Assembly (NCBI RefSeq): GCF_937425535.1
Contig: NZ_OW485601.1
Location: forward strand, 2,320,501 to 2,384,500
Length of the DNA stretch: 64,000 nt
From: Rhodovastum atsumiense
GTDB taxonomy: Bacteria; Pseudomonadota; Alphaproteobacteria; Acetobacterales; Acetobacteraceae
Reading direction: 5' to 3'
Numbering within the stretch: position 1 is the first letter of the stretch; every line of letters starts with the position of its first letter. Under the pieces are notes generated by a model. The model ran no database searches. It had not been told where the DNA came from and saw nothing but the letters and a program-made list of their open reading frames with translations. Both the position numbers and the translations under genes were made by a program. Shown piece by piece: positions 1 through 3,552 of this stretch.

Positions 1-63
1 CGGCCGGTTCAGGGTGAGACGACGCCAGCCATCGCGCGCCTCCACCCGGATCGCTTCCTCCAT
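1..63 (-). CDS. Enoyl-CoA hydratase/isomerase family protein (N-terminal 21 residues only, cut by window edge)
   Basis: Only the first 21 codons lie in the window. The reading frame starts with ATG at 63 on the minus strand and runs off the left edge. The visible peptide contains DGWRRLTLNRP, which matches the first beta strand of crotonases (typically D-G-V-x-x-L-T-L-N-R-P). A GAGGA ribosome-binding motif lies about 8 bases upstream of the ATG. Family members hydrate or isomerise acyl-CoA thioesters, often in beta-oxidation. The catalytic region is outside the window, so the substrate cannot be stated. Confidence 0.55.
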   Translation of the reverse strand, partial: MEEAIRVEARDGWRRLTLNRP

Positions 64-1832: not shown

Positions 1833-1932
1833 TCAGCCCATTGATAGCCGAGGGTTCCATACCTGTTGATCTGGTCGCAAGATCGTGACAGCAGGGGGAT
1901 GGGCCAAATGCGGCTACAGCTGGAGAGGCGTG

Positions 1933-2694
1933 ATGGGATCGTATTCCCCTGGGGTTGCTCGTGGCGTGGCGGGGCTTTCGGCCGGGTCCGCGAATGCGTC
2001 GGTTGCTGACGCGGGCGGAGCCGAGCATCATATTCCTGACTACCTGAATGAGATTTACTGGTGGACCTATATCCACCCGCGCGCCATTCGCTTTTTCGAG
2101 CGCCCCTGGCTGGTCAACCTGATCCTGTGGGGCAAGTACGTCACCATGCGCGACGCCGCGGTGGCGGAGCTGGGTGAAACCCTTCCCGGCCGCACCCTGC
2201 AGATCGCCTGCGTGTATGGCGACCTGACCCCCCGTCTGGCGGCGCGCGTGCCGGAAGGCTCGCAGCTCGACGTGCTGGACGTGGTGCCGGGCCAGTTGAG
2301 GAACCTGCGGCGGAAGCTGCCCGAGAACGCGCCGGTGAAGCTGCTCGAGATGGACAGCTCGGCGATGCATCTGCCGGACGCCACCTACGACCGGGCCCTG
2401 CTGTTCTTCCTGCTGCACGAAATGCCGGTGCCGGTGCGCGAGGCGACGCTGCGCGAGGCGCTGCGGGTGGTGCGTCCGGGCGGCAAGCTGGTGATCGTGG
2501 ATTTCGCCAAGCCGTCCAAATGGCATCCGCTGAAATATCTCTGGCATCCCGTGCTGACCCGGTTGGAGCCCTTTGCGCCGGATCTGTGGACCCATCCGGT
2601 CGACACCTGGCTGCCGGCCTCCCATCGCGACAAGGTCACTGCCCGCGCCTCATATTTCGGCGGCTTCTACCAGAAGCTCGTGATCACGGTCTGA
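1933..2694 (+). CDS. rquA: RquA-type rhodoquinone biosynthesis protein (methyltransferase fold)
   Basis: This 253-residue protein has a class I SAM-methyltransferase fold and closely resembles RquA, which converts ubiquinone to rhodoquinone. Visible traits are YWWTYIHPRAI (42-52) and WLVNLILWGKY (59-69), the altered SAM-binding loop ACVYGD (92-97), the acidic strand LDVLDVVPGQL (112-122), LLFFLLHEMP (156-165) and LRVVRPGGKLVIVDF. RquA proteins replace the usual glycine-rich loop, and family studies show that SAM serves as amino donor rather than methyl donor. ATG 1933 is preferred over a GTG at 1885 because GGAGAGG lies 6 bases upstream. Rhodoquinone serves fumarate-reducing anaerobic respiration at the inner membrane. 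No fumarate reductase genes are in the window. Confidence 0.82.
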   Translation: MGSYSPGVARGVAGLSAGSANASVADAGGAEHHIPDYLNEIYWWTYIHPRAIRFFERPWLVNLILWGKYVTMRDAAVAELGETLPGRTLQIACVYGDLTPRLAARVPEGSQLDVLDVVPGQLRNLRRKLPENAPVKLLEMDSSAMHLPDATYDRALLFFLLHEMPVPVREATLREALRVVRPGGKLVIVDFAKPSKWHPLKYLWHPVLTRLEPFAPDLWTHPVDTWLPASHRDKVTARASYFGGFYQKLVITV

Positions 2695-2795: not shown

Positions 2796-3057
2796 CATGC
2801 CCGGGGCATGCCCGGCCGTCATGATCGCGCAGCCTTCTCCGCTCGGCCCCTGAAGCGCGGCGGCGCGCAGGGACTCCCCCCTCACGTATCGGCTGGAACC
2901 ACATCTTTGCAGGCTGCGTTCCAGCCTGGCAGCGATCGGGGATGATCGCTCGGTGGGTCCGGGTGGCGTCCGGCGTGGGCTCGTGGTGCTGTCCAGGCAA
3001 ACAGTTGGTAAAGAATGATCGCGGGAAATAAAACTTGTCATCCATAGCGATAAATAA
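2796..3057. other. Intergenic stretch with no recognisable gene
   Basis: This is part of the 575-base gap between rquA and the DUF427 gene. Short open frames here resemble no known protein and lack good ribosome-binding sites. Base composition changes from GC-rich (up to about 2990) to clearly AT-rich (from about 3000), where the small-RNA gene and two promoters sit. Confidence 0.5.
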
Positions 3058-3112
3058 AAGAAAAGGGCCACCCAAGAGGGGCGGCCCAAGTTTGTTAGTT
3101 CAGGGAGGAAAC
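3058..3112 (-). ncRNA. Candidate small RNA, resembling the alphaproteobacterial suhB/alpha-r8 (MmgR) family
   Basis: A compact transcription unit lies on the minus strand. A near-consensus promoter at 3119-3147 would start transcription at about 3112. The transcript then carries the unpaired motif UUUCCUCCCU (complement of 3101-3110), followed by CUUGGGCC and a 9-bp hairpin (3065-3087) ending in a U-rich tail (3064 downwards). Length is about 55 nt. The anti-Shine-Dalgarno-like UCCUCCC box directly ahead of a terminator hairpin beginning GGGCC matches my memory of the suhB/alpha-r8 sRNA family, which includes MmgR, a regulator linked to polyhydroxybutyrate storage. The promoter, box and terminator are seen directly; the family name is inference. 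No open frame here competes convincingly. Confidence 0.7.
3065..3087 (-). terminator. Rho-independent terminator of the small RNA
   Basis: Read on the minus strand, GGGCCGCCC pairs with GGGTGGCCC (nine pairs, one of them G-U) across a 5-base loop. The stem is followed by TTTTCTTTTATTTA (3064 down to 3051). This is a classic intrinsic terminator and fixes the 3' end of the small RNA. Confidence 0.8.
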
Positions 3113-3118
3113 ACGAGT

Positions 3119-3147
3119 TCTATACTCACATGCGCGTGAGCGGTCAA
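3119..3147 (-). promoter_or_regulatory. Sigma-70-type promoter for the small RNA
   Basis: On the minus strand a -35 box TTGACC (3142-3147) is separated by exactly 17 bases from a -10 box TATAGA (3119-3124). Predicted transcription starts 6-7 bases further, near 3112. This is one of the clearest consensus promoters in the window. Confidence 0.75.
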
Positions 3148-3174
3148 GAGATTTTGATATCTCACTATCGTAAC

Positions 3175-3203
3175 TTGTTTGGTATCAACTTATAGTTTAT
3201 AAA
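3175..3203 (+). promoter_or_regulatory. Candidate promoter for the DUF427 gene
   Basis: A -35-like TTGTTT (3175-3180), a 17-base spacer and a -10-like TATAAA (3198-3203) lie in AT-rich DNA upstream of the ATG at 3271. The predicted leader is about 60 bases. It lies back to back with the small-RNA promoter on the other strand. Confidence 0.45.
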
Positions 3204-3270
3204 CACTGCTTGAATATTGCGCTTTGGAGTCGATGGCAGGCTGTCTGCTTTTCTCGAGGAGGAGACGCCC

Positions 3271-3552
3271 ATGAAGGCAAGCTGGAATGGTCGGGTGCTC
3301 GCCGAAAGCGACGACATCGTCACCGTGGAAGGCAACGCCTACTTCCCCGCCACTGCCCTGGATCGCAGCCTGGTAGTCGAGAGCAGCCATACCAGCACCT
3401 GCCCGTGGAAGGGCACGGCGCATTACTACTCGGTGCAGGTGGACGGCAGGACCAATCCCGATGCCATCTGGTACTACCCGCAGCCAAAGCCGGCCGCCCG
3501 GCAGGTCGCCGGGCGGGTCGCGTTCTGGAAAGGTGTTGAGGTCACACCATAG
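3271..3552 (+). CDS. DUF427 domain-containing protein
   Basis: This is a 93-residue single-domain protein. The sequence KASWNGRVLAESDDIVTVEGNAYFP, present in two parts, then SSHTSTCPWKGTAHYYSV and NPDAIWYYPQPKPAA match the DUF427 beta-barrel fold. The C-P-W-K-G motif and the W-Y-Y-P-x-P segment are the conserved family features. The start at 3271 is supported by GAGGAGGAG at 3256-3264. The biochemical role of the family is not established. The gene appears to be a single unit read from its own promoter. Confidence 0.85.
   Translation: MKASWNGRVLAESDDIVTVEGNAYFPATALDRSLVVESSHTSTCPWKGTAHYYSVQVDGRTNPDAIWYYPQPKPAARQVAGRVAFWKGVEVTP

Follow-up and report, generated by a model that had tools for sequence, protein, structure and literature searches.

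A predicted small RNA of probable alpha-r8 descent, below the Rfam cut-off, in an AT-rich island of Rhodovastum atsumiense

The locus examined here is a short intergenic region, and the question that it raises is whether it encodes a small RNA (sRNA) and, if so, of which family. On one side a ubiE-like methyltransferase gene ends before it (1885-2694, plus strand, by gene search), and on the other it has a divergent neighbour, a DUF427 gene (PF04248 by profile match; 3271-3552, plus strand), within the 64-kb stretch of DNA that was analysed as a whole (the window). The initial annotation had described a minus-strand sRNA transcription unit in a local AT-rich island and had proposed that it might belong to the suhB/alpha-r8 family. 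The island is real: GC content is 42.3% at 3000-3240 vs 69.8% for the window, and the lowest-GC of the 6376 overlapping 241-nt stretches in the window starts at 2991.

The sequence elements themselves are also present as described. Read on the minus strand from 3147 to 3050, the unit consists of a -35 element TTGACC (3147-3142), a 17-nt spacer, a -10 element TATAGA (3124-3119), the 7 nt ACTCGTG that separate it from the core, the anti-Shine-Dalgarno core or seed UUUCCUCCCU (DNA TTTCCTCCCT; 3111-3102; supported by alignment, covariance match and fold), an 8-nt insertion GAACTAAC (3101-3094, recognized by comparison with 67 other copies) that separates the core from AAACUUGG, then AAACTTGG, an intrinsic terminator hairpin of nine pairs, eight of them G-C, with a loop of five (3087-3065; terminator search and fold), and the U-rich tail TTTTCTTTTATTTAT (3064-3050). 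An ACUUGG (3091-3086; covariance match and alignment) stands ahead of the terminator stem and reaches into it. We call this alpha-r8-like sRNA unit (minus strand, about 3147-3050) the window copy. The sequence shows an isolated intergenic unit with promoter-like elements, a 10-mer unpaired in the predicted fold and a strong terminator, and the genome carries four canonical siblings at other places. We consider the unit, with a probability of about 0.78, to be a predicted gene for a trans-acting, probably Hfq-dependent sRNA of alpha-r8 (suhB/MmgR/Sis) descent.

The covariance search that the initial annotation had suggested gives an end-to-end match to Rfam RF00519 (suhB/MmgR, alpha-r8) at 3128-3050, over all 77 positions and with 36.8 bits in cmscan; the E-value is 4e-6 for 401 bases against the whole Rfam library and 1.8e-5 for the whole genome against this one family. 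The match is below the curated gathering score of 41, and cmscan found no Rfam match at gathering level anywhere in the window. R2, a sequence-only model built from 36 copies of other genomes with the window excluded, finds its best place in the 64 kb at 3112-3057 (20.8 bits, E 1.9e-5). The same model gives 37 to 63 bits to the four own copies above the cut-off, 35 to a fifth (L006), 17 to a sixth (L007) and 17-20 bits to three betaproteobacterial units, so that R2 separates the window copy from look-alikes by a small margin. These three units, from Dechloromonas and others (L153 5210-5273, L159 5049-5112 and L160 1285-1348), have the arrangement UUUCCUCCCU-N9..10-ACUUGGGCCGCCC-terminator directly before GGAG...ATG and no Rfam match at E 0.1. 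Their similar order, together with weak matches of the window copy to the anti-hemB, SorY and sbrA models, would fit convergence, by which an unrelated sRNA or leader acquired an anti-Shine-Dalgarno run ahead of a terminator; given the full-length RF00519 match, the separate match of R2 and the canonical siblings in the same genome, we think this very unlikely.

The genome (7.42 Mb, 9 contigs) contains four RF00519 copies above the cut-off, followed by the window copy and then by copies of 34.6 and 26.7 bits; anything below these resembles noise. At the same loose E-value all 14 control genomes give RF00519 matches, with one of the 14 over the cut-off, and 39 of 60 relatives have a copy above it. 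At L001 2140-3072, the own canonical copy is near an L-lactate permease gene. The 26.7-bit copy, L007 (1501-1599, on the 112-kb contig C6), shows a strong 5' hairpin when inspected by eye, has CTCTACA as its spacer and is possibly plasmid-borne; plasmid searches with it and with the window stretch gave no match.

For comparison, 75 loci were entered and filtered for the presence of ACTTGG. Of these, 28 failed: 6 were repeats, 20 were further copies, and L019 and L135 had no pattern placement; the 47 that passed and the 20 further copies make up the 67 other copies. The invariance of ACTTGG among the 47 is by construction, since the filter demanded it, and R2 likewise leans to ACTTGG; many of the 20 further copies have ACTCGG, and the ACUUGG of the window copy is ACUCGG in many relatives. 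L112 and L119, also among the 20, have one core change each, and L106 has only 17 nt upstream. Two types are common: in type A the 5' part usually ends TTGGACG, and type B has GTGTGACTGGCG, mostly after a 5' hairpin. In both, the downstream part is TTTCCTCCCT, then AAACTTGG or AAACTCGG, then the terminator. The window copy has TATAGAACTCGTG at the collar position, and its 8-nt insertion is absent from all 67 other copies examined, although extra spacing of lesser length is present in some. Real members of the family do tolerate changes in the spacer (56.1 bits for L158, with extra spacing; 26.7 bits for L007 with its CTCTACA). The exact window-type spacer pattern has no occurrence in the genome contigs, and a relaxed pattern found nine stretches: the RF00519 copy L158, the three betaproteobacterial terminator units and five without a terminator by eye. 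As a separate observation, six IMG/VR viral contigs (L162-L167, two sharing one stretch) carry TTTCCTCCCTAAACTTGGC and then a terminator by eye.

A DNA search with 861 bases across seven genomes of the genus returned the window itself, a 29-base match in G002 and nothing in the other five, i.e., no ortholog in six genus-mates; beside DUF427 homologs, cmscan of 20 out of 25 strong-match loci of other genomes gave no Rfam match at all. The missing ortholog and the score below gathering level are what one would expect of a decaying duplicate, a non-functional remnant whose core was kept by chance or through recent origin, but the core (10/10), ACUUGG, the 9-bp stem and the U tail are intact, the differences from the aligned copies lying in flank, spacer and stem, and a promoter-like element adjoins the unit; we regard decay as unlikely. 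Because core and terminator are kept, with 8 extra nt, no PhaR/AniA operator (see below) and no ortholog in the genus-mates, we read the window copy as a divergent sibling. Kinship with suhB/MmgR/alpha-r8, as initially proposed, is thus borne out by the covariance and R2 matches, the intact 10-mer, ACUUGG and the terminator; typical membership is not, given the low score, the extra nucleotides, a missing GGACG/GGCG collar and the absence of the operator and of an ortholog in the six genus-mates. The kind of RNA is already known, and the window copy is probably a divergent, rewired member of it below the Rfam cut-off.

The 5' end has two readings, and the promoter and the fold bear on both. With both strands counted, the 64 kb contain a single TTGACN-16..18-TATANN, the putative promoter of the window copy, and TTGAC-17..19-TATA arises in 0.03% of 20000 Markov sequences (45 nt, composition of the AT-rich island); a 9-of-12 match to plain sigma-70 hexamers arises in 4.1% of 20000 such 45-nt sequences. 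The promoter scan did not list the TTGACC/TATAGA site because it requires T at the last -10 position. The predicted short transcript (3112-3057 by R2 model and fold; about 57 nt, or 56-58, with an inferred start at 3112 or 3114) folds at -20.1 kcal/mol with a z-score of -4.05, and none of 200 shuffles folds equally well. In the predicted minimum free energy (MFE) fold the core is unpaired, its first three bases being only 0.47-0.61 unpaired in the predicted ensemble. A dyad, CTCAC-N6-GTGAG (3140-3125, 5-bp arms), is located inside the promoter spacer and could be an operator or, if the transcript is longer, its 5' hairpin; a second, GAGAT-N6-ATCTC (3163-3148), adjoins the -35 element, and neither is significant on its own. 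In predicted folds, a 5' hairpin upstream of the core is absent with a start at 3112 and present with a start at 3142.

The RNA would accordingly be either about 57 nt long with the seed at its tip or about 87 nt long with a 5' hairpin, and we somewhat favour the short form, since the TTGACC/TATAGA promoter is rare. The longer transcript (about 87-97 nt) would belong to the same family, the first dyad being the family's 5' hairpin, the start lying upstream (for example about 3152, from TTGATA-18-TGAGAT) and TTGACC/TATAGA standing inside the gene by chance. The RNA from 3142 does fold like its siblings, into 5' hairpin, linker, core and terminator, and its dyad-to-core gap of 13 nt, measured by eye, compares with 11-14 nt in siblings. 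However, the promoter further upstream is the weaker of the two, with 8 of 12, TTGAC..TATA is unique within the window and rare in the Markov controls, and the linker carries no GGACG/GGCG collar; we therefore hold the longer form to be a serious possibility and give it the lesser weight.

PhaR/AniA of Sinorhizobium meliloti represses mmgR and binds the promoter site CAATTGTGCACCGCAGCATTA (PMC12542648), and a published consensus is TGCRNYGCASMA (PMC6201568). The operator pattern TGCRNYGCA, sought within 130 nt upstream of each copy, is present at 38 of the 67 other copies overall (36/50 of type A, 2/17 of type B) and in 1.1% of shuffles; often it is TTGTGCACCGCAGCA or near it, just downstream of the -10 element. 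This wider comparison suggests that one sibling type often has the PhaR link known from MmgR and that the other seldom does. Upstream of the window copy no TGCRNYGCA is found within 130 nt, an absence not peculiar to it, because only two of the six other own copies (L001 and L002) have the operator; a PhaR gene is present in the genome. L002 has, besides its operator, an FGase gene beside it, and an alpha-r8 copy reportedly adjoins the FGase gene in most single-copy species, with extra siblings elsewhere (PMC12559287). On these two features L002 is likely to be the counterpart of MmgR, and the window copy, flanked by the DUF427 and methyltransferase genes and without an FGase neighbour, a rewired sibling. 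Having no PhaR/AniA site, the window copy probably responds to another signal than its MmgR-like siblings.

What the core might act on was addressed by target prediction, as initially suggested. An hfq gene is present (PF17209, E 8.5e-32). The genome contains 13 exact copies of the seed complement AGGGAGGAAA, five of them inside alpha-r8 genes; of the other eight sites, six precede an open frame at Shine-Dalgarno distance and two do not. The six precede genes for a CubicO-like hydrolase, a secreted protein, a hypothetical protein, an OprB carbohydrate porin, an enoyl-CoA hydratase-like protein and a protein on contig C5, names that beyond the Pfam matches were assigned by eye. Predicted duplexes of the window seed with these sites range from -19.3 to -24.6 kcal/mol, and canonical siblings are predicted to pair equally or better with several of them; the predicted targets belong to the whole sibling set, with none singled out for the window copy. 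None of the six sites lies before a substrate-binding protein (SBP) gene (five were classed by phmmer, the sixth, L152, by eye).

In the taxonomic family, AGGGAGGAAAC stands before ATG in 69/120 genomes, some sites being on the antisense strand of sRNA genes, and a control motif, AAGGAGGAAAC, in 65/120. SBPs account for 27 of 68 genes behind the seed complement vs 9 of 61 behind the control (Fisher p 0.0017; because the genomes are related, their sites are only partly independent), so that the control motif alone yields 15% SBPs. The first set comprised 78 sites (30 loci, 40 fetched, 5 from the own genome and 3 added), from which 4 antisense to sRNAs and 6 with frames < 60 aa were removed; fetched sites were taken in list order, skipping AAACGTCC rows, which are antisense to the sRNA itself. 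The control set comprised 70 (30 loci and 40 fetched in list order, one contig-end site skipped), less 1 flagged and 8 short. Both sets are samples in list order from longer lists, with a single control motif and with genomes with and without alpha-r8 pooled, and the SBP class was assigned by phmmer with representatives chosen by eye in both. Counts by Pfam (67 vs 61 members) agree with this: Peripla_BP_6 was counted 7 vs 3 times and TctC 6 vs 3; SBP_bac_8 (5) and DctP (4) compare with none among the 25 families shown. Target lists of this kind are noisy because the core and the generic Shine-Dalgarno signal overlap. Target prediction gave six own sites at Shine-Dalgarno distance and an SBP enrichment in relatives, but no SBP gene in the genome itself. 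The enrichment fits Caulobacter SisA, since the SisA target set is rich in receptors and transporters (PMC12559287), and the wider comparison suggests that alpha-r8 RNAs of this lineage act on uptake genes, like SisA in Caulobacter.

The DUF427 start region (window 3258-3281, minus strand) resembles an antisense of canonical type-A alpha-r8 RNAs, with an R2 match at E 0.023, and its ribosome binding site (RBS) is predicted to be complementary to canonical siblings, with a duplex of -25.2 kcal/mol (-18.1 or -21.3 for the window copy, by the length used). Duplexes with siblings at 23 other DUF427 homologs, of which L055 is out of frame, reach -11.3 to -21.3 (24 of 26 loci in all); the complementarity is strongest in this genome and was therefore rejected as a conserved feature. 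In the speculative scenario set out below, the window copy may also cross-talk with this divergent neighbour, whose RBS the canonical siblings are predicted to bind strongly.

In the mechanism that we propose, sigma-70-type transcription would start near 3112-3114, Hfq would hold the U tail, and the core would pair with Shine-Dalgarno regions of the AGGGAGGAAA type and block ribosome loading, the putative targets being uptake genes, which are favoured in related genomes, with the OprB carbohydrate porin among the six own exact sites. Pairing with Shine-Dalgarno regions, together with Hfq, is the most likely action on this model. A more speculative extension, which we consider rather doubtful, is that a duplicated alpha-r8 RNA was freed from PHB/carbon-store control by having no PhaR operator and was cut down to about 57 nt, which leaves the seed at its tip, under another regulator that reads both promoter dyads, so that the same anti-Shine-Dalgarno nutrient-uptake regulon would answer a second signal. 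Judged by titles on alpha-r8 RNAs of the group, no account of the window copy was found in the literature searched, and a 2016 phylogenetic survey of the family may cover it. The curated Rfam threshold overlooks it, and it offers a testable case of sibling sRNAs in which one seed is retained while promoter and 5' end are altered.

Among known systems, anti-hemB (RF02837) and SorY (RF02651) resemble the window copy in a CCUCC run ahead of a terminator; these matches are weak, at 25.5 bits vs a cut-off of 49.5 and 18.6 vs 111, respectively. The rhizobial AbcR1/2 (alpha-r15) and NfeR1 (alpha-r14) repress SBP genes through anti-Shine-Dalgarno motifs (PMC8844928), a target class similar to that predicted here, although they are separate families; the AbcR motif CUCCUCCC, moreover, is in a 5' hairpin loop and has no match to the AAAC extension used in our site counts. 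With suhB/MmgR (RF00519; alpha-r8 of S. meliloti) the window copy shares the core UUUCCUCCCU, ACUU before a GGGCC-type terminator, the size class and a full-length covariance match, and it differs in its score (36.8 vs 41 bits), in the 8 extra nt after the core, and in having neither a PhaR/AniA operator in the 130 nt upstream nor a place beside FGase. The SisA-D system of Caulobacter crescentus includes the sponge CrfA, and our comparison is of the sRNAs alone; unlike SisA-D, the window copy would have no weak 5' hairpin if it starts at 3112. As in the alpha-r8 RNAs MmgR and SisA-D, it has the internal 10-mer (10/10), unpaired in the MFE fold, and a Rho-independent terminator. The likeness to SisA-D (alphaR8) extends to the genome as a whole, which holds several siblings with the same 10-mer; according to the Caulobacter report, the siblings there have unrelated promoters and SisA, which uses on a 5' UTR the very 10-mer that the window copy carries, represses its targets by pairing through it (PMC12559287).
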